A stretch of 21,253 bases of DNA from a virus. Below are positions 6,898-21,253 of the stretch, piece after piece. The position numbers and the translations under genes were made by a program. The stretch lies in IMG/VR virus record IMGVR_UViG_3300047557_003128, positions 1 through 21,253 of that record. One strand, given 5' to 3'. Below the pieces are notes generated by a model that was not told the DNA's origin, searched no databases, and saw only the letters and a program-made list of their open reading frames with translations. How positions within the stretch are numbered: the first letter of the stretch is position 1; the number at the start of each line of letters is the position of its first letter.

Positions 6898-9800
6898 ATG
6901 GCCGATCAAAGAATTACGGAACTCGTTGAACTTCCTCAGGGAGGCGTAGCTTCCAATGACGTTTTGCCCATTGCAGACGTTAGTGCCAGTCAAACCAAGA
7001 AAGTGCAAGTTAAGAGCCTGATTCAAGCAGGCTTTAACATTGCGGACGCATCGACTCTTGATATTTCAAAGATTAACCAGGCCAGCGCAGCGAAACTTAC
7101 TGGCACATCCATTGCCACTAATACGCTCACTTATGACAAGATTCAGCAGGTAAGCGCCAATAAGCTTCTTGGGCGAAGCGCATCTACTGGCAATGTAGAA
7201 GAAATTGATTGCACTGTTTATATTCGTACGCTTCTTGATGATGCCAATGCTGCCGCTGCTCGTTCCACATTGGAACTTGGCGTGGTTGCCACTGGCAATA
7301 CCATCAATACCAGTCTTCTTGAAGACCTAAGCGTTACCACTGGCAAGATCAACAACTTGGCCGTTACGGCTGCAAAGCTGGCTAGCGATGCAGTGGAAAC
7401 TGCGAAAATTCTTGATGGCGCTGTCACTTCTGCGAAAATTCAAACAAGTGGAATCACAGGCAGTAACGTAAGCGCTGGCGCTATTGACACGGTTCATCTG
7501 GCTACTAGCGGCGTCACGCTTATCAAGATGGCCGCCAATTCAGTTGGCACCATTCAATTAGTCGACAGCGGAATCACTCAAGCAAAGCTTGCCGCTGATG
7601 CAGTGGCAACTATTAATGTTGCTACCAGTGGCATCACGCAGCCCAAGCTTGCTGCAAATGCCGTCGCAACGATTAATCTCGTTGATAGTGGCGTTACTTT
7701 CGCAAAGCTTTCCTCGGACAGTGTCAATACGATTAATTTAGTTACAAGCGGCGTTACGCAAGCAAAGCTTGCTGCTGATGCAGTTGCAACGATTAATCTG
7801 GTTGATAGTGGAATCACTCAGCCAAAGCTTGCAAGTGGTTCAGTCGCCACCGTCAACGTCATTGATTCTGCCATCACTCTTGCAAAGATGGCAAGTGGTA
7901 GTGTCAACACCGCTCAGTTTGTAGACAGCGGCGTAACACAAGCCAAGCTTGCCTCTGGCGCTGTCAATACAATCAATTTAGTTGACAGCGGCATTACACA
8001 GCCCAAGCTTGCTGCCAATGCAATTGCCACTGTAAATATTGTCGACAGTGGAGTTACCACTGCAAAGCTTGCATCTGGCGCTGTCACTATTTCAAAGCTT
8101 AGTCTTTCTTCTGGAGAGCTTTCTGGCGCTGTAATCACTGCAAGCTCAATTCCTTCTGGAAGCTATGCAAGTGGTTCCGTCCCCACTGCTGCCATTGCAG
8201 ACAATTCCGTCACTTTTGCCAAGATTCAACAAGTGGCAAGTGGCGTATTGCTTGGTCGCGCCTCTGCTGGTAGCGGCAATGTGGAAAGCATTACTCTCAC
8301 AGAAGCAGGTAGAGCGCTCCTGGACGATGCCGACGCTGCTGCGCAGCGCACCACGCTTGGTTTGGAAACCATGGCTGTGCAGCCCGCATCTGGCGTAGCA
8401 ATCACTGGCGGCACGGCGGTACTCAGTAGTGGCACCATTACTTACGCCACAATCAATGGCGGTGTGATTAGTGGCATTACTGATCTTGCCATTGCAGACG
8501 GTGGCACGGGAGCCTCCACTGCTTCTGGAGCACGCACCAATCTTGGTTTGGCAATTGGCACTGATGTGCAAGCTTATGACCCTGCTCTTGCTTCCATCGC
8601 AGGACTTGCCACTGCATCTGGTCAGTTCATTTATACCACTGCTTCCGACACTTACGCTACTGCCACAATCACTGCTGCTGGTCGCGCCATTCTTGATGAT
8701 GCAGATGCGAGTGCGCAGCGTACCACGCTTGGACTTGGCTCGCTTGCCGTAAAAAATACAGTAGGAAGTGGCGATTACGATTCTTCTTCTATTGTCACTG
8801 CCAATATTGCCGATGGCGCAATTGCTACGGCAAAGCTTGCTGACAGTGGCGTTACCACTGTCAAGATTGTTGATGCAAACATCACAGCAGGTAAGCTTGC
8901 CAGTAATTCTGTTACTACAGCCAAGATTATTGACAGTGGCGTTACCACTGTCAAGATTGCTGACGGAGCTGTTTCTTACGCAAAAATTCAAGCCACTTCT
9001 GCAAGCGATGTACTGCTTGGTCGGTCCTCAGCAAGCGGTGGCACCGTAGAAGAAATCCCTTGCACTTCTGCTGCTCGTTCCATTCTTGATGATGCGACGA
9101 TTGCTGACATTCGCACAACGCTTGGTCTTGGCACATTAGCGCTGCAAAATGGCAGTTTTGCTGGCACATCCACTGGCACCAATACTGGCGACCAGACCAT
9201 CACGCTTTCTGGAGACGTTACAGGCACCGGCACTGGAGCGTTTGCCGCCACCATCGCCAACTCTGCAGTCACCTCAGCAAAGATCAATGATGGGGCAATT
9301 ATCACTGCAAAGATTAGTGACGATGCTGTTACTAGCGCCAAAATGGCAGATAATTCTGCTGCCATTGTTGCAGGCTCCACCCCGGTAGGCAGTGGTATCT
9401 TCATTGGCCAGCAATGGCTCAATACTGGCACTGGTGTTGAATACACTTGGACGGGCAGTGAATGGTTGCGGCAGTCTGGACTATCTACCACTGTTATTTC
9501 TGGCGACACTGTTTATAGCTTTACCACTTCTTATCCCGATGCCTTTAGTGCATCGATTGTTCCTGCATTAAACACGCAAGTTGCTACGCGCTTCTTTGCT
9601 GGTCCTGCAAGTGGTAGCGCTGATGCCGCCCCAACTTTCCGTGCCATCACTGCCAACGATCTCCCCAAAGGCACCACTTCAGCCTTGGGCGTAGCCCAAG
9701 CTGGCACGGGCTTGGTCACTGTTAGTGGCATCTTCAACCATGCCAATAGCGTTGCATCTGGTATTTATTACAAGGTGACAGTAGACCCGCAGGGGCATAT

Positions 9801-11178
9801 AAGCGCAGGGGAGGCAAGTCTTGTTGCAGATGACATTCCTGCTCTTCCTGCATCGAAAATCACCACTGGCACATTTGGTAGTGGCTTTATTGCGGACGAT
9901 TCCATTCTTGCTTCCAAGCTTGCTAACTATTCAGTGAGTCAGTTTGGCGAAGCACCGCCAGTTGCTGATTTCATTGGACAATTCTTCTTCAATCCATTGG
10001 AGAAAGATCTCTATCTGTGGGATGGTAACGTTTGGAACCCTGTTGGTATTAGCGTCGGGGAAATCATCTTTGGTGGCACATATAATGCAAGTGGGAATGT
10101 CATTGCTAGCACCAGTAGTGATGGCGCCGCCGTTGGCTTAAGCGTTGGTCAGCCACTGCCTTCTCCATCGGCCACTTTTAATCGTTATTACGTGGTGGTA
10201 GCGAGTGGCGGCACTGGCACATCGCCTGCTCCTGAGACCACTCTTCAGCCGCCCGATATTCTGCTTTGCAACGGCACTGCATGGACTGAAGTGGACGTTA
10301 GTTCCACCTATCTTTCTCAAACGGCTGCGCAGGTTTCATTTTCGCCTGCTGCGAACATTGCAAGCAGCAATGTGCAAGCTGCCATTGAAGAAGTTAGCAC
10401 GGAATGTAGAAATGTCAACAATGTAGCGAGTGGCATTCTTGCCGTTGGTTATGGCGGCACTAGCTTTAATTCCTATACAAAAGGAGATCTTCTCGTTGGT
10501 AGTGGTACCACTCTTATTAAGCAAGCAGTGGGAACCAATGGTCAAGTGCTAACTGCTAATTCAGCTTTTGGCGGAGGCGTGCATTGGACCACGCCTGCAA
10601 GCGGCACCGTTCTTTCAGTGAGCGCTAATGCTCCGCTCACTGTTGTCAGTGGCAGTACCACGCCAATTATTTCCATTCCCGATGCCACGACAAGCGTGCG
10701 TGGTAGCGTTCAGCTCACTGATTCCACCAGTACCACTAGTTCAACGCTTGCTGCTACTGCCACTGCAGTGAAGAGCGCTTTTGACCTGGCCAACGCTGCA
10801 TTGCCACGAGCCGGCGGCACTATCACTGGTGAAGTGGTTATTGGCACAACTGGCACGTTGTTGTTTGAAGGCTCCACGGATAATGCCTTTGAAATTCAGC
10901 TTGCTGCTGCTGATGCCACTTCAGACAAAATTGTCACTTTGCCAGACACCACTGGCACCATCATTACCACTGGAGACACTGGTACAGTCACCAATTTAAT
11001 GCTTGCTGGCAGCATTGCTGATACTAAGCTTTCCACGATTTCCACTGCCGGCAAGGTTAGCAATAGTGCCACCACTGCCACTAGTGCCAACACCGCCAGT
11101 GCAATTGTCGCTCGCGACGCAAGTGGCAATTTCTCCGCTGGCTCCATTGATGCCACCATTGATGAAGGTACTTTCTAA
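6898..11178 (+). CDS. Giant repeat-built tail fibre, 1426 aa
   Basis: The N-terminus, MADQRITELVELPQG...NDVLPIADVSASQTKKV, is of the kind that starts many cyanophage fibre proteins. Most of the chain is low-complexity, rich in Ala, Ser, Thr and Gly. Residues 182-401 are eleven 20-residue repeats (consensus VDSGVTQAKLAAxAVATINL). Four copies of a KIQ...LLGR...VEEI / LLDDA...RTTLGLG module lie at about residues 79-745, one of them partial. Two Trp-rich segments (GQQWLN...EWLRQSG near residue 835; LYLWDGNVWNPVG near 1035) may be carbohydrate-binding turns. The end is DATIDEGTF, a motif shared with two adaptor-like proteins in this window. It should form a long trimeric fibre, probably anchored by its N-terminus. 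The next gene follows a nested hairpin. Receptor specificity cannot be read from sequence. Confidence 0.75.
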   Translation: MADQRITELVELPQGGVASNDVLPIADVSASQTKKVQVKSLIQAGFNIADASTLDISKINQASAAKLTGTSIATNTLTYDKIQQVSANKLLGRSASTGNVEEIDCTVYIRTLLDDANAAAARSTLELGVVATGNTINTSLLEDLSVTTGKINNLAVTAAKLASDAVETAKILDGAVTSAKIQTSGITGSNVSAGAIDTVHLATSGVTLIKMAANSVGTIQLVDSGITQAKLAADAVATINVATSGITQPKLAANAVATINLVDSGVTFAKLSSDSVNTINLVTSGVTQAKLAADAVATINLVDSGITQPKLASGSVATVNVIDSAITLAKMASGSVNTAQFVDSGVTQAKLASGAVNTINLVDSGITQPKLAANAIATVNIVDSGVTTAKLASGAVTISKLSLSSGELSGAVITASSIPSGSYASGSVPTAAIADNSVTFAKIQQVASGVLLGRASAGSGNVESITLTEAGRALLDDADAAAQRTTLGLETMAVQPASGVAITGGTAVLSSGTITYATINGGVISGITDLAIADGGTGASTASGARTNLGLAIGTDVQAYDPALASIAGLATASGQFIYTTASDTYATATITAAGRAILDDADASAQRTTLGLGSLAVKNTVGSGDYDSSSIVTANIADGAIATAKLADSGVTTVKIVDANITAGKLASNSVTTAKIIDSGVTTVKIADGAVSYAKIQATSASDVLLGRSSASGGTVEEIPCTSAARSILDDATIADIRTTLGLGTLALQNGSFAGTSTGTNTGDQTITLSGDVTGTGTGAFAATIANSAVTSAKINDGAIITAKISDDAVTSAKMADNSAAIVAGSTPVGSGIFIGQQWLNTGTGVEYTWTGSEWLRQSGLSTTVISGDTVYSFTTSYPDAFSASIVPALNTQVATRFFAGPASGSADAAPTFRAITANDLPKGTTSALGVAQAGTGLVTVSGIFNHANSVASGIYYKVTVDPQGHISAGEASLVADDIPALPASKITTGTFGSGFIADDSILASKLANYSVSQFGEAPPVADFIGQFFFNPLEKDLYLWDGNVWNPVGISVGEIIFGGTYNASGNVIASTSSDGAAVGLSVGQPLPSPSATFNRYYVVVASGGTGTSPAPETTLQPPDILLCNGTAWTEVDVSSTYLSQTAAQVSFSPAANIASSNVQAAIEEVSTECRNVNNVASGILAVGYGGTSFNSYTKGDLLVGSGTTLIKQAVGTNGQVLTANSAFGGGVHWTTPASGTVLSVSANAPLTVVSGSTTPIISIPDATTSVRGSVQLTDSTSTTSSTLAATATAVKSAFDLANAALPRAGGTITGEVVIGTTGTLLFEGSTDNAFEIQLAAADATSDKIVTLPDTTGTIITTGDTGTVTNLMLAGSIADTKLSTISTAGKVSNSATTATSANTASAIVARDASGNFSAGSIDATIDEGTF
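7132..9132 (+). repeat. Dispersed LLGR / LLDDA-TTLGLG fibre modules (four copies)
   Basis: A module reading KIQ-x(6)-LLGR-x-S-x(2)-G-x-VEEI then R-x-LLDDA-x-A-x(3)-RTTLGLG occurs near 7132-7290, 8212-8365, 8660-8740 (second half only) and 8980-9132. The copies are separated by other sequence and differ at the DNA level, so they are old protein repeats rather than recent duplications. They probably form repeated folding units along the fibre shaft. Confidence 0.65.
7441..8100 (+). repeat. Eleven tandem 60-bp units inside the giant fibre gene
   Basis: The period is exactly 60 bp over 660 bp, in frame, each unit encoding 20 residues with the core DSG-[VI]-T-x-x-K-[LM]. Eight units carry AAGCTT at the same offset (units starting 7561, 7621, 7681, 7741, 7801, 7921, 7981, 8041). 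Copies differ from each other, mostly at third positions, so protein periodicity is kept while DNA drifts. The array encodes a regular fibre shaft. It is not a CRISPR array: there are no unique spacers and the reading frame is open throughout. Confidence 0.85.
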
Positions 11179-11250: not shown

Positions 11251-13266
11251 ATGGCCGGTGTTCTTCAGCATCTGCGTTCATCAACGCTTAACAAGCGTCC
11301 TAATCCTGCTTCCATGGTTGATGGCCAATTGGCCATTAATTATGCAAGTGGAAGTCCTGGGGCTTTTTTCAAGGACAGCAACGGTAATTTAGTAAAAGTG
11401 GGGCCTGTGCATGTGGGAGCAACTGCTCCTAACGTGAGCCCTGCAAGTGGCGGCACTGCTGGTAATAGCCTTGGCGAGCAATGGCTTGATACCAGTGGTG
11501 GCACTTATGTGTTTAAGATTTGGGACGGGGCTTCGTGGCGCAGTGAGGCTGGTGAGTTTGTAAACGTCACTGGTGACACCATGACTGGAGCTTTGGGCGT
11601 TATTGCAGGCTCAGCTTCCACGCCAGGACTATTTTTTAGCGGGGACGCAAATTCTGGACTGTATTCCCCCGGCGCAGACCAAGTAGCCATCTCGACTAAT
11701 GGCACTGGGCGGTTGTTTGTTGACAGCAACGGGAATGTTGGCATCAACACAGCAAACACCATTGCACCAGGAGGATTCGGTTATGCAAGAGAATTTGCTT
11801 TAACTGGCGCAACATCAGGTGATTCAGCCGTCGCAATAAACCTAAGGGGATCCAGAACTGTTGCCGGGGGATTTGTCGACATTAACTTCTGGCATCAAAG
11901 CACATCTAATCGCGCTTACATCCAGGCTCGTCGCGGCTCTAGTGATAGTGCCATTGATCTGGACTTTATTACAAGTGGCGGCGCTGGGATGCGCCTGGAC
12001 TCCAGTGGCCGCTTAGGTCTGGGGACTAGTAGCCCTGGTTTTAAGTTAACTATTGAGGATGCTACGACACCCAGAATCCGCATCGGCGATGGTACCCGCC
12101 ATTTGAATATTGATGGCGGCTCCGCCACTCAAAACGCAGCTATAGGAACAGATTACGCGGGATCTTTTGGTATTTACACGAATGGGGCCGCAAATACACG
12201 ATTGCATGTTACCTCGGCAGGTAACGTAGGGATTGGCACTACGAGCCCTGGCGCAACATTAGATGTTAGTGGGACTGTTAATTTCAAACCTGCTGCGGGG
12301 TATAACGCTTTATTTCAGCAAAGCTCTACAACTTTGCGAATTAACTATTTGAATGACGCAGGATCAGCAAACGTATCGGCAACATACAGAGCAACTGACT
12401 TTGCCTGGCAGAAAGGAGATGGAGGTGAAGTTGCCCGCATCGACAGCTCCGGCAGGCTCCTGGTGGGCACGTCTTCTAGTTCTGCCGAGGCTAAATTTAT
12501 TGTCCAAGGTGGCGCTACTGCCGCCGGTGGAGCAATAAACATCCAGCGGAACGCAACTACTGCATCCGCTGGTAGCACGATTGGCTATATCAGCTTCGCC
12601 AATTCTGCTAACGACGCTGGCGCATTTATCTCTGCGGACGGTGACGGTACATGGAGCGCTGGCACTAGCCATCCAACGCTCTTAAAGTTCTCCACTACCG
12701 CCGACGGAGCGAGCAGCCCGACGGAGCGGATGAGGATAACGCAAAGCGGGGAACATGCAATGTTTTCCAACAGCGGTACGTTCACAGTAAATGCTTACAA
12801 CGCAAGCGCTGCTGGCACAATAAATGTCTTATTTCAAGGTCGCCATAGTGCTACTGGTGTTTTCAGTGGAACACAATCGTTTGTCGTGTACACAAACGGC
12901 AACGTTCAAAATACAAACGGGAGCTACGGGACTATTTCCGACGAAAAACTAAAAGAAAACATTGTCGATGCCAATTCGCAATGGGCAGATCTGAAAGCTA
13001 TCAAGATTCGCAACTGGAACTTCAAAGAAGAAACAGGGCACGGAACTCATCGTCAGATTGGCCCAATCGCTCAGGAACTCGAGAATGTATGCCCTGGCCT
13101 TGTCTTTGAAACACCCGACCGCGATGAAAACGGCAACGAAACTGAAGAAGTCACGAAAGGCGTAAATCAGTCCGTTCTTTACATGAAGGCGGTCAAGGCG
13201 CTGCAGGAAGCAATGGAGCGGATCGAAATCCTTGAGGCCAAAGTTGCGGCCATTGAGGGCGTGTAG
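11251..13266 (+). CDS. Tail fibre with S74 intramolecular chaperone domain, 671 aa
   Basis: Residues 1-60 form an anchor-like domain (VDGQLAINY...FFKDSNGNLVKVG). Near residues 74-98 is a Trp-rich EQWLD...IWDGASW segment. From residue 130 the shaft carries repeats such as GRLFVDSNGNVGI, RLDSSGRLGLGTSSP, VTSAGNVGIGTTSP and RIDSSGRLLVGTSS. The last 109 residues are a Peptidase S74 domain: S563-D-E-K-L-K568 is the Ser-Lys dyad signature, and the end (NQSVLYMKAVKALQEAMERIEILEAKVA) is the helical coiled-coil tail. In this family the domain trimerises the fibre and then cleaves itself off before the Ser, leaving a mature product of about 562 residues. AAAGG lies 8 nt before the ATG inside a hairpin. 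Receptor binding is inferred. Confidence 0.85.
   Translation: MAGVLQHLRSSTLNKRPNPASMVDGQLAINYASGSPGAFFKDSNGNLVKVGPVHVGATAPNVSPASGGTAGNSLGEQWLDTSGGTYVFKIWDGASWRSEAGEFVNVTGDTMTGALGVIAGSASTPGLFFSGDANSGLYSPGADQVAISTNGTGRLFVDSNGNVGINTANTIAPGGFGYAREFALTGATSGDSAVAINLRGSRTVAGGFVDINFWHQSTSNRAYIQARRGSSDSAIDLDFITSGGAGMRLDSSGRLGLGTSSPGFKLTIEDATTPRIRIGDGTRHLNIDGGSATQNAAIGTDYAGSFGIYTNGAANTRLHVTSAGNVGIGTTSPGATLDVSGTVNFKPAAGYNALFQQSSTTLRINYLNDAGSANVSATYRATDFAWQKGDGGEVARIDSSGRLLVGTSSSSAEAKFIVQGGATAAGGAINIQRNATTASAGSTIGYISFANSANDAGAFISADGDGTWSAGTSHPTLLKFSTTADGASSPTERMRITQSGEHAMFSNSGTFTVNAYNASAAGTINVLFQGRHSATGVFSGTQSFVVYTNGNVQNTNGSYGTISDEKLKENIVDANSQWADLKAIKIRNWNFKEETGHGTHRQIGPIAQELENVCPGLVFETPDRDENGNETEEVTKGVNQSVLYMKAVKALQEAMERIEILEAKVAAIEGV
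11681..11723 (+). repeat. 43-bp direct repeat, copy A (inside intact fibre gene)
   Basis: This copy matches 13824-13866 at 41 of 43 positions, with differences at the 7th and 26th bases. It encodes the junction VAISTNGTGRLFVD between the anchor part and the variable tip of the intact fibre. Both copies are in the same fibre reading frame, so recombination between them keeps the frame. Immediately after the repeat the two sequences diverge. Confidence 0.85.
11998..12027 (+). repeat. 30-bp identity island shared by the two fibre tips
   Basis: This stretch, encoding DSSGRLGLGT, is identical at the DNA level to 14111-14140 in the downstream fibre tip, although the sequences around it differ strongly. 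A second island, 12433-12456, is identical to 14558-14581 and encodes ARIDSSGR. Such islands in otherwise different sequence are marks of, and sites for, homologous exchange between tips. Confidence 0.75.
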
Positions 13267-13279
13267 GCCTACTCACTAA

Positions 13280-13387
13280 ATGCACTACCTAATTGCAGCA
13301 CTACTGTTGGTTATTGCCATCGTCTTCCCAATGGTCTGGATTTACGCAGGTCTTCCGTATCGGCGTGGTCCCTTCTTCTGGGATTGA
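13280..13387 (+). CDS. Small single-span membrane peptide, 35 aa
   Basis: ATG 13280 opens a 35-codon frame ending TGA 13385-13387, starting 13 bp after the fibre stop. The product begins MHYLIAALLLVIAIVFPMVW, a run of about 18 hydrophobic residues, then turns polar with YRRGPFFWD. It looks like a single transmembrane helix with a basic cytoplasmic end. No Shine-Dalgarno sequence is evident. It overlaps in another frame the unused N-terminal extension of the next gene, and this reading is favoured because it makes a clean membrane helix. Its role is unknown; holin- or superinfection-exclusion-like functions are possible but unsupported. It travels with the 126-aa gene between the two fibre tips. 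Confidence 0.5.
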   Translation: MHYLIAALLLVIAIVFPMVWIYAGLPYRRGPFFWD

Positions 13388-13448
13388 TGTAGTGTGGTGG
13401 GGCAGCGAGTTTGCACCTCCTGCCCCTGGCCACAGTTCCCTAGAAACC

Positions 13449-13829
13449 ATGACCAACGAAGATTACACGTTCCGGCCCACTGCGATTGTGGACCCAAACC
13501 CAACCAGTTTCCTCTTCCTGCGGGAAAATACGGAAGAAGTTATCCGGCTAGACAAGGAAGGCTTCCACTACAAAGGCGAGTTCATCGCTGATGCTGGTGA
13601 AGCGCATCGGCTGATGGTTGCGTTTCTGAAGCAGAACACCGCCCAGCCCGAGCCGCAGGGACCAACGGATGAGGAGCTGCTTCATATCGCCCGGTTCGCA
13701 ATAGAGCCTTACGCAGACTGCGGGATTGCTGTTGGCGAATATGAGGTGGAAACCGAATGCGCTATAGAAACGTATGGCAGCGAGCTGATCGCCTTTGCCC
13801 GCGCTGTCCTTGCCCGCTGGGGTAAGTAG
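13449..13829 (+). CDS. Conserved-looking cyanophage protein of unknown function, 126 aa
   Basis: The frame is open from 13293, but the first 52 codons read like non-coding sequence and overlap the 35-aa membrane peptide, so I prefer ATG 13449 (MTNEDYTFRPTAIVDPNPTSF). The product is soluble. Residues 28-50 (EEVIRLDKEGFHYKGEFIADAGE) and the end ELIAFARAVLARWG are patterns I recall from small hypothetical proteins of cyanophages; no function is known to me. A linker, QPEPQGPTDEE, separates the two halves. Its last codon and stop (AAG TAG, 13824-13829) lie inside copy B of the 43-bp repeat, so the gene abuts the fibre homology exactly. Its sequence is visibly richer in GC than neighbouring fibre DNA, suggesting separate origin. 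Confidence 0.65.
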   Translation: MTNEDYTFRPTAIVDPNPTSFLFLRENTEEVIRLDKEGFHYKGEFIADAGEAHRLMVAFLKQNTAQPEPQGPTDEELLHIARFAIEPYADCGIAVGEYEVETECAIETYGSELIAFARAVLARWGK

Positions 13830-13866
13830 TCATCTCGACTAATGGCACGGGGCGGTTGTTTGTTGA
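13824..13866 (+). repeat. 43-bp direct repeat, copy B (start of orphan fibre tip)
   Basis: This is the partner of 11681-11723 (41/43 identical). It begins at the AAGTAG that forms the last Lys codon and stop of the 126-aa gene and runs into GTTGA of the orphan tip. In the fibre frame it reads VVISTNGTGRLFVD directly after an in-frame TAA (13823-13825), so the tip has lost everything upstream of this motif. The repeat marks the edge of the inserted 2.1-kb segment 11681-13823. Confidence 0.85.
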
Positions 13867-15463
13867 TTCAAGTGGCAATATTGGCATTGGCACTGCTACG
13901 CCTAGTAATAGATTATCAATCTTGTCCGCAACCGCAGACATCGGACTACTTGGCACCAGCAATGTCTATTGCAACTACTTAATCAATTCTGCGTCGATTG
14001 GATATGTTGGCGATGCGAACTGGATGTTTGGGAATTCCAGTTCAGATTTTGGGTTACGTGCCACAAATAATCTTGTCTTTGGTATTGGCGCAAGCGAACG
14101 CGCCCGCATCGACTCCAGTGGCCGCTTAGGTCTGGGGACTTCTGCACCAGACGAAAGGTTAGTTGTTGCAGGTGCAATCCGCGCAACTAGTAATGCCACA
14201 GACTGGTCTGCGTCAAATGGTGCGTTGATTGACTACAACGCGGGAGAAATGAGAATTGTTGCTGCAAGAAATGGCGCAAACAGCAGCAATATGTCTTTTA
14301 CCACGTTTAACGCGGGCACGGCTGGCACGCGTATGTACATCACTTCGGCAGGATCGGTAGGGATTGGCACTACTGGACCCAGCCAGAAGTTGTCCGTCGA
14401 AGACGCTGCCGACACTTATGCGCTTGTCAAGAGGACGGTAAGCGGTTCCGAATCAACACTCCTTATCGGCGCGGAAAGTGGAAAAACAGTTATTTACTCT
14501 AGGGACAATGCTACTGGCGGTAGACCGCTTGAGTTCACTATTGGCACAGCTCCTGCGGCCCGCATCGACAGCTCCGGCAGGTTGTTAGTTGGCACGTCTT
14601 CGAGCGCTGGCGACGGACTGCTTCAGGTGCGAAATGATAGCGGTGGTGTTTGCTATGACGCTTTTAGGGCGGTTGGGACTGCCACTGGTGCGCCCGTTCT
14701 CCGGCTTAATAAATCTCGTGGAACTGCCGCTTCTCCTACAGAAGTAAGTAGCGGCGATGTTCTTGGATACATCGCATTTGCTGGTTATGACGGAGCAGCG
14801 TTTGCTGATGCTGCTTACATCACTGCAATAGCAGATGGAACGTGGACTGATGCTGGAGATACGACTGACAATCCTGGCGCGTTAGTGTTCTCCACTACTG
14901 CGGATGGGGCGAGTTCTCCGACGGAGCGGATGAAGATTACGCGAACTGGAGAGATATATGTTTTCTGCGCTAGCGGTGCGTGGAACCACTCAGCAAACAA
15001 TGGAAGTGGCGCTGGCACAGAATCTGCACTTTACCAAGGAAGATACGGTGCTACTGATAACACTGGGACTACGGGAACTAGATCTTATGTTGTCTGGACA
15101 AATGGTAACGTCCAGAACACTAACAACAGCTATACCGCAATCTCCGACATCAAGCTGAAGGAGAACGTTGTTGATGCCAATTCCCAATGGGCTGACATTA
15201 AGTCTTTGCAGGTTCGCAACTATAACCTCAAGGAAGGCCAAACTCATCGGCAGATTGGTTTGATTGCCCAAGAGGTTGAGCTTATCAGTCCCGGTCTTGT
15301 TTACGAATCCCCTGACCGCGACGACGACGGCAATGACCTTGGCACCGTCACCAAGAGCGTCAACTACTCGGTGCTCTACATGAAGGCAGTCAAGGCGCTT
15401 CAGGAAGCAATGGAGCGCATCGAAACCCTTGAAGCCAAAGTTGCTGCTCTTGAGAGCGCGTAG
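13856..15463 (+). CDS. Orphan S74 fibre tip without N-terminal anchor, 535 aa
   Basis: The frame opens after TAA 13823-13825, and the only early start is TTG 13856; the first in-frame ATG comes at about residue 57. The chain begins inside a fibre repeat (FVDSSGNIGIGTATPS) and then has the same block order as the intact fibre: DSSGRLGLGTS, ITSAGSVGIGTTGP, RIDSSGRLLVGTSS, FSTTADGASSPTERMKIT, and an S74 domain of 106 residues with S430-D-I-K-L-K435 and the helical end. Both catalytic residues are kept and no stop interrupts it, so selection has probably maintained it. There is no anchor domain, no evident ribosome-binding site and no promoter. It could be a displaced, silent tip cassette, a free-standing tip subunit, or a decaying duplicate. 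Confidence 0.7.
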   Translation: MFVDSSGNIGIGTATPSNRLSILSATADIGLLGTSNVYCNYLINSASIGYVGDANWMFGNSSSDFGLRATNNLVFGIGASERARIDSSGRLGLGTSAPDERLVVAGAIRATSNATDWSASNGALIDYNAGEMRIVAARNGANSSNMSFTTFNAGTAGTRMYITSAGSVGIGTTGPSQKLSVEDAADTYALVKRTVSGSESTLLIGAESGKTVIYSRDNATGGRPLEFTIGTAPAARIDSSGRLLVGTSSSAGDGLLQVRNDSGGVCYDAFRAVGTATGAPVLRLNKSRGTAASPTEVSSGDVLGYIAFAGYDGAAFADAAYITAIADGTWTDAGDTTDNPGALVFSTTADGASSPTERMKITRTGEIYVFCASGAWNHSANNGSGAGTESALYQGRYGATDNTGTTGTRSYVVWTNGNVQNTNNSYTAISDIKLKENVVDANSQWADIKSLQVRNYNLKEGQTHRQIGLIAQEVELISPGLVYESPDRDDDGNDLGTVTKSVNYSVLYMKAVKALQEAMERIETLEAKVAALESA

Positions 15464-15636: not shown

Positions 15637-15948
15637 ATGGCGATCACTTATTCCTGGGGCGTTTCCCAACTTGAAAGGCAGCTTTCGAGCGGTATTGTCT
15701 ACACCGTCCACTATACGATTTCTGCCGATGATGGCACGTATGCTAGTTCGGCATACGGCAGTCTTGGCCTTGAACCCCCTGATGAGGACGACGAGATTCC
15801 TTATGCTCAGCTCACCCCTGAAATCGTCACCGGCTGGGTGAAAGATAAGTTTGGCGATGAGAAAGTGGCAGAAATTGAAGCCGCCCTTGCAGAACAAATT
15901 TCTCAACAACGCACTCCCACTACTGGTACTGGCCTGCCTTGGAGCTGA
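15637..15948 (+). CDS. Conserved-looking cyanophage protein, 103 aa (DUF7936-like from memory)
   Basis: The product is an acidic 103-residue protein. The first half is beta-like (TYSWGVSQLERQ...VYTVHYTISADDGTYASSAYGSLGLEPP) and the second helical (QLTPEIVTGWVKDKFGDEKVAEIEAALAEQI), ending TGLPWS. This architecture, with an HYTISADDGTY-like strand, a YGS turn, an LT..IV.GWV helix and a final PWS, recalls small hypothetical proteins found in many cyanophages and labelled DUF7936; I could not check this. Its function is unknown. It stands alone between two terminators with the 45-aa basic gene, separated from that by only 3 bp. The start at 15637 is the first ATG; no clear Shine-Dalgarno sequence precedes it. 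Confidence 0.6.
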   Translation: MAITYSWGVSQLERQLSSGIVYTVHYTISADDGTYASSAYGSLGLEPPDEDDEIPYAQLTPEIVTGWVKDKFGDEKVAEIEAALAEQISQQRTPTTGTGLPWS

Positions 15949-20588: not shown

Positions 20589-21253
20589 TTAGCCTTCTTG
20601 AAAAACTGAAATGTACACGGTGCCAGTTTTAGTGAGAGGAAGAATCTTGTCGCGCAAGTCGATATTATGACAGCGCACGCAACCATGAGTGGGGACAAGA
20701 GGCTGCTTTGGAGCCCATGCTCCAGGCCAACCATTTGCACCTCCGCCACCATGGGTCATAATTCCTGCCCTGCCACTACCAGCTTCTTGATTTTCTAGTT
20801 CGACCATGTCGAAGCTGTACCAGCCGTAGGCCATAAGAGTGCGATCATATGCAGGCTTGTCGCCCACTCGCTCATAGTCTTTATAAATAGCGCCAATCTT
20901 GTAAATTCCAGGCGGCGTGTCTGAATTTGTGATTTTCCATTCAAAATCACTGTATTGCCCACGAGCGAGACACGGGATTTCCCATAAAAGCTTTCCTTCA
21001 AAAGAGAAAGCTTTCATGGTTTCCACTGCATCGTTCACAATCAAATGTGAATCGCCTTTCTTAAAGCCAAAATCTTGCGGACGTTTTTTAGGGCCAATCA
21101 TAGTAAAAGCAGTGCTCTCAGGGGCATATTCCTTCATGAGCTTAGACAATTTTGCAGGATAATCTGGATCAGTGGCATACGATTGCTCCTTGAGCATTCG
21201 CGCTGCTGCATAGCGATTTGGAGCATTATTAATGCCCTTGAAATGACGATAGT
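20589..21253 (-). CDS. Peptidoglycan enzyme: glucosaminidase-like fused to L,D-transpeptidase (YkuD)-like domain (5' partial)
   Basis: The frame has no stop up to the right edge, so the protein starts outside the window; ATG 21197 is internal. Upstream of it the chain reads YRHFKGINNAPNRYAAARMLKEQSYATDPDYPAKLSKLMKEY, the C-terminal part of a FlgJ-type N-acetylglucosaminidase domain (the YATDP-x-Y-x-x-KL signature). About 50 residues later comes a beta-rich domain with GIMTHGGGG and PTHGCVRCHN, the YkuD signature: counted from the internal Met, first His 149, second His 171 and catalytic Cys 173, then Arg 175. Such enzymes act on peptidoglycan stem peptides; glucosaminidases cut the glycan. 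The product should be a virion or lysis enzyme. It is convergent to the tail genes. Confidence 0.7.
   Translation of the reverse strand, partial: YRHFKGINNAPNRYAAARMLKEQSYATDPDYPAKLSKLMKEYAPESTAFTMIGPKKRPQDFGFKKGDSHLIVNDAVETMKAFSFEGKLLWEIPCLARGQYSDFEWKITNSDTPPGIYKIGAIYKDYERVGDKPAYDRTLMAYGWYSFDMVELENQEAGSGRAGIMTHGGGGANGWPGAWAPKQPLVPTHGCVRCHNIDLRDKILPLTKTGTVYISVFQEG

Follow-up and report, generated by a model that had tools for sequence, protein, structure and literature searches.

A stranded tail-fibre tip behind an intact fibre in an uncultured cyanophage, probably a relic of illegitimate recombination

An anchorless fibre tip follows an intact fibre

How does a phage come to carry, behind an intact tail fibre gene, a second fibre tip that has neither a start codon nor an anchor? 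The question is raised by a 21,253-bp IMG/VR virus record with tail and fibre genes, a fragment from a freshwater cyanophage (IMGVR_UViG_3300047557_003128; this whole stretch of analysed DNA is called the window below). Its nearest relatives are the uncultured phages L138, L104 and L106, on contigs of ~75 kb, and a fibre followed by a 103-aa gene is also the order in the cultured Synechococcus phage S-EIV1, at lower identity. The answer we favour, with a probability of roughly 0.7, is that illegitimate recombination between two related co-infecting cyanophages stranded the 3' part of a second fibre allele here, as the second tip (tip2). It is probably an isolated and recent recombination relic in an S-EIV1-related cyanophage. 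The features on which this reading is based are as follows.

11251-13266, + strand: intact S74 tail fibre of 671 aa, consisting of anchor, tip1 and S74 chaperone
11251-11680, + strand: fibre anchor, 90-98% identical in amino acids to its closest relatives, whose tips are different
11681-11723, + strand: copy A of a direct repeat, the anchor/tip joint (DQVAISTNGTGRLFVD), present as near-identical DNA in fibres whose anchors and tips are unrelated
11724-12930, + strand: tip1 shaft/tip, its 5' part 96.5% identical to locus L095, where it stands on a different anchor
12931-13266, + strand: tip1 Peptidase_S74 intramolecular chaperone (Pfam PF13884, 9e-12)
13826-15463, + strand: orphan tip2, 545 open codons, with a head that lacks a start codon and a complete S74 tip
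15137-15463, + strand: tip2 Peptidase_S74 chaperone (Pfam PF13884, 4e-9)

An earlier, sequence-only reading of this DNA had drawn attention to a direct repeat in one frame at the anchor/tip boundary, and this was borne out: the copies at 11681-11723 and 13824-13866 (copies A and B) agree at 41 of 43 positions, include uninterrupted identical runs of 18 and 17 bp, lie in the same phase of their frames and can be extended without gaps to 73 nt at 81% identity. Such a match is far more than chance would give, since the repeat is an allelic segment of the fibre. The same reading had described a tip cut off by a stop codon and lacking an ATG at its head, and indeed an in-frame TAA at 13823-13825 is followed by a frame open to 15463, in which the first ATG is at 14024, 66 codons past the TAA, with TTG 13856 the sole candidate start upstream of it. 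The two tips diverge yet correspond, as had also been noted, since the alignment of tip2 with tip1 begins at the repeat and runs through to the C-terminus (572 columns, 44% identity) and both retain the S-D-x-x-L-K Ser-Lys signature (SDEKLK and SDIKLK). Judged by this dyad and the PF13884 domain, both tips would qualify as S74 chaperones of the endosialidase type, with cleavage predicted. Tip2 lacks the N-terminal virion anchor of S74 fibres and begins inside the joint, after TAA 13823.

The second repeat copy is a composite of two genes

Between the two tips lies ORF126, a separate gene with its own leader that the sequence-only reading had missed, and its stop codon falls inside copy B.

13449-13829, + strand: ORF126, a 126-aa cargo gene (ATG 13449, TAG 13827-13829) whose relatives sit just behind fibres in the same slot
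13824-13833, + strand: start of copy B (AAGTAGTCAT), the native ORF126 3' end and flank, with microhomology to the fibre joint (AAGTAGCCAT)
13834-13866, + strand: fibre-derived rest of copy B, from the joint of the displaced fibre
13831-13833, no strand: breakpoint, CAT in both parents, with T13830 from the ORF126 flank and C13834 from the fibre joint

The opening ~10 bp of copy B are part of this gene and not of the fibre, being the natural ORF126 3' end as in relatives (AAGTAGTCATTACC...), and the remainder is fibre joint (AAGTAGcCATCTCG...). Relatives of ORF126 terminate in AAGTAG followed by TCATTACCACTAATCACC (L153, L154 and L160, with the same flank in L158 and L095 and a similar one in L157); at the junction the window has AAGTAG followed by TCATCTCGACTAATGGCAC, and the fibre joint AAGTAG followed by CCATCTCGACTAATGGCAC. 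Counted from the TAG, the flank is TCATTACC in L153, L154, L157, L160, L158 and L095, and at the matching position the fibre joint, GTAGCCATCTCG, compares with TCATCTCG after the TAG of the window. Because T13830 matches the ORF126 side and C13834 the fibre side, the switch falls within CAT 13831-13833. Origin from the ORF126 flank also explains the odd T at 13830, which puts Val in place of Ala, and since copy B is composite, one of the two mismatches between copies A and B is therefore a scar of the junction. The ORF126 flank and the joint match at 16 of 22 positions (P = 0.0006 in shuffles, P = 0.0026 in random real 25-mers), and their longest common exact run is 6 bp. As read from its bases, the junction is a microhomology-guided, illegitimate join.

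Microhomology is also typical of amplification chimeras, and the tip1-ORF126 end and a tip2 allele from different phages of one sample might have been joined in vitro, during amplification or assembly. The microhomology at the junction would fit such an artefact, as would its occurrence on a single metagenomic contig, the exact junction being absent from all other IMG/VR contigs (L416 and L417, considered as second contigs with the same junction, proved to be chance matches to a shorter pattern). However, k-mer assembly could not have bridged an exact run of 6 bp unless reads spanned it, the sequence upstream of copy B is not the anchor, so that the 43-bp repeat itself cannot have caused an assembly join, and both flanks match the single backbone of L138. 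We therefore regard a chimera as improbable.

Unrelated anchors and unrelated tips meet at the same joint

Copy A (PGADQVAISTNGTGRLFVD) is not confined to the window phage. An exact 23-bp part of the joint occurs in at least 120 IMG/VR stretches, unrelated anchors and tips among them, and no exact match to the joint was found in cellular genomes. The 23-bp sequence is common to 36 instances that are mutually unrelated on both flanks, a count drawn from loci mostly picked by the joint pattern and thus no unbiased rate. An unbiased check, using only loci fetched by protein search, gave 94.8% pairwise nucleotide identity for the codons of QVAISTNG, compared with 79-91% for 12 other conserved fibre peptides. 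Where the residue is the same, codon identity climbs to 0.6-0.97 at many joint positions, compared with about 0.35 outside the joint. DNA alignments to L138, L104, L106, L085 and L092, which have homologous anchors, end within 11722-11749, at the end of copy A, and beyond it the fibre is a patchwork of 92-99% blocks, each shared with different phages. In L095 an unrelated anchor carries the joint and the start of tip1 (96.5% identity), and an ORF126-like gene comes after that fibre. The same joint DNA thus stands between unrelated anchors and unrelated tips, as in modular exchange; together with the near-identical codons this fits tip exchange through the joint, by these alignments a place where fibre tips are commonly swapped. 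As a separate observation, single fibre proteins in L308, L347, L380 and L386 contain joint-like modules (GSAAAP..F..DPNTGIYSPGADQVAISTNGT), two or more in a row, suggestive of a duplication of the joint module itself.

As a process this is the modular swapping of tail-fibre tips, by homologous or illegitimate recombination, already described for P2, lambda, T4 and Mu fibres (PMC10579305; PMC3945230 and references therein). Shared with those systems are a conserved anchor, a variable tip, short conserved swap motifs and cargo or chaperone genes travelling behind the tip. The window differs in having retained the displaced tip rather than replacing it, in a microhomology junction mapped to the base, and in a joint that is a specific motif of cyanophage S74 fibres.

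This distribution also bears on whether the repeat is part of a dedicated repeat-based system, as had been proposed. The joint is present in those 120 or more viral stretches, copy B was made by microhomology joining to the end of ORF126, there is no other orphan in this slot and no array, and no immunity-like gene was identified, all of which leave the proposal unsupported. Programmed repeat-mediated displacement is rejected on account of the ORF126 origin of the first ~10 bp of copy B and the wide occurrence of the joint.

The fibre slot is conserved and tip2 resembles a resident fibre

In relatives the variable fibre slot is flanked by a 1426-aa upstream fibre-like gene (up1426) plus the anchor on one side, and by dn103 on the other, while its interior varies.

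15637-15948, + strand: downstream border gene of 103 aa (phrog_7802, dn103), conserved at 99% in L138 and L104 and 46% in S-EIV1

The 37 entries that have both anchor and dn103, a number that includes the window itself and duplicate contigs, each have one anchored fibre, behind which lie anything from none to several small cargo open reading frames (ORFs); an anchorless tip is found in the window only, and 177 S74-bearing loci yielded no second orphan tip. Within tip2, 14878-15424 has 89% DNA identity to the C-terminal region of the fibre of L138, which is anchored and the only one there. The substitutions fall mainly at third positions (14/12/42; dN 0.064, dS 0.41), and this traces tip2 to a fibre that was functional in this lineage. 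Stranding of a second allele is supported by the conservation of the slot, the position of ORF126 relatives behind fibres and this similarity to the resident fibre of L138.

In the history that needs the fewest assumptions, parent 1 would have supplied anchor, joint, tip1, S74 domain and ORF126 as far as AAGTAGTCAT, just beyond the ORF126 stop, and parent 2 the fibre from the CAT in its own joint (AAGTAGCCATCTCG...) through tip2 and its S74 domain to the 103-aa gene. The join would have been guided by the 10-bp microhomology AAGTAGyCAT (16/22 bases over the longer stretch), the fibre allele of parent 2 losing its anchor on joining and so becoming tip2, and tip1 would be the tip in use by the phage. 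The event may have consisted of one displaced crossover, or of an insertion whose left crossover was homologous and lay in the joint. Identity to L138 is 99-100% in the right arm of the window, over 16-19 kb, and about 91% in the left arm, but these values are rejected as a sign of two parents, and do not separate the two routes, because L138 and L104 likewise differ more on the left (82%) than on the right (95%).

Several points weigh against this reading. The join is known from one metagenomic contig only, the N-terminal two thirds of tip2 have relatives of only ~50% identity, and since no parent genome with the whole of tip2 on an anchor was found, we infer the state before the event. Tip2 also runs through 545 codons with no frameshift or stop, as would be expected if the event were recent or if selection maintained the frame; we take the open frame to suggest that the event is recent.

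Tip2 is probably silent

Without a start, a ribosome site or an anchor, tip2 is probably silent. It could instead be translated alone, from TTG 13856, from ATG 14024 or coupled to ORF126, to give a separate trimeric subunit or a soluble tip, as its long open frame and intact S74 domain would allow and as the ORF126 stop, about 27 bp ahead of TTG 13856, might favour. However, this TTG is the Leu codon of the joint, and inspection by eye shows no clear ribosome site for it; the first ATG lies 66 codons in, and no convincing promoter for tip2 was found, with only weak promoter-like matches inside it. Tandem S74 genes elsewhere (L028, L055, L090, L091, L110/L115 and L148/L149), which had been considered as possible orphans, were set aside, since the second gene appears to have its own N-terminal start near the head of the ORF. 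Separate translation is accordingly very unlikely. A frameshift fusion of ORF126 and tip2 was also rejected, no slippery heptamer being seen by eye.

ORF126, its leader and other features of the locus

ORF126 itself has no Pfam, PHROG or PADLOC match. Its family is modular, with an N-terminal half (about residues 1-65) and a C-terminal half (about 65-126, ending like FARAVLARWGK) that are found apart in many phage cargo genes.

13380-13448, + strand: promoter-like and hairpin leader of ORF126, common to different cargo genes in about 49 loci

The leader as a whole (~80 bp, 13380-13470) comprises a TAnnnT box, a GTGGT-GGGGCAG...CTGCCCC-GGCCAC hairpin with ACCTCCT in its loop, and then CAGTTCCCTAGAAACCATGACC. 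It precedes different small cargo genes at 75-98% identity across these loci, and the hairpin shows compensatory changes at 4 pairs (12 cells, compared with 2.8 in shuffles) and has no Rfam match. It may serve mobile cargo genes as a shared leader for their expression.

Elsewhere in the window, the gene for the 1426-aa upstream fibre-like protein (6898-11178) contains imperfect 60-nt tandem repeats (7548-8089); in S-EIV1 the fibre is fused to a relative of the C-terminal part of this protein. On the - strand, opposite to the structural genes, 20589-21197 is an ORF of 202 aa that contains a YkuD L,D-transpeptidase domain.

Could the stranded tip be reused?

The sequence-only reading had likened the locus to Rhs and contact-dependent inhibition (CDI) systems, in which displaced CdiA-CT and Rhs-CT orphan modules are known (PMC4927057, PMC3967940) and reactivation of an orphan Rhs tip has been shown in Salmonella (PMC3967940). 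The geometry of that comparison stands: a startless, displaced C-terminal tip lies downstream of an intact gene and retains homology to its junction, in copy B, though the first ~10 bp of this copy come from ORF126. The rest does not carry over. Instead of a toxin with a cognate immunity gene there are S74 fibre tips and an intervening gene, ORF126, that matches no known family and for which an immunity role is not supported; and the window is a single case, with neither recurrent orphans nor arrays among the relatives surveyed and no evidence of reactivation. The likeness to Rhs/CDI orphans thus appears to be one of geometry only, with reactivation through the joint possible.

Such reactivation would make tip2 a silent reservoir. 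Recombination between the two joints would delete 2143 bp and leave the anchor with tip2 as a fibre of 689 aa (144 + 545 residues, as the sequence-only reading had correctly calculated) and a new receptor specificity. The in-frame joint copies with their identical runs of 18 and 17 bases, a complete and open S74 tip, the natural use of the joint as a swap point and the functional precedent of orphan Rhs tips (PMC3967940, PMC4927057) all speak for such a role. In the other direction, the stranding came about by microhomology joining and by no repeat-targeted process, tip2 is unique among the 177 S74 loci, and no genome with anchor and tip2 only, for which comparison of related phages had been suggested, was found. 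No RecT or ERF annealase was found in the three ~75-kb relatives, nor was an invertase or reverse transcriptase, and the deletion would irreversibly take out ORF126 and tip1 as well. On balance a reservoir is unlikely, and the stronger proposal, a stored silent second tip, switchable via the shared joint, as the fibre counterpart of Rhs/CDI orphan modules, is a little more doubtful still.

The Mu G and P1 C invertible segments likewise place two alternative tips beside one anchor, but the tips of the window have the same orientation, and neither the window nor the three ~75-kb relatives contain a match to PF00239 (Resolvase) or PF00078 (the reverse transcriptase of diversity-generating retroelements), and on this ground switching by an invertase or by such an element is rejected. 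The fibre locus of S-EIV1 (KJ410740) resembles the window in having an S74 fibre with the joint motif and a dn103 homologue (46%) directly after it, but it has one fibre only, no ORF126 and no orphan tip.

Among the results listed by searches of open-access papers, neither this joint nor a stranded fibre tip is described. What is new here is a base-level view of a stranded-tip product, together with a joint common to many cyanophage fibres. The locus offers a tip-exchange intermediate in which the displaced tip is still visible and the junction legible to within three bases, and as the joint is near-identical across the fibres of many uncultured cyanophages, the mechanics by which host-range modules are exchanged become directly testable. 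Should reactivation of the stranded tip prove possible, phages would possess a reservoir of tips like that of bacterial Rhs loci.

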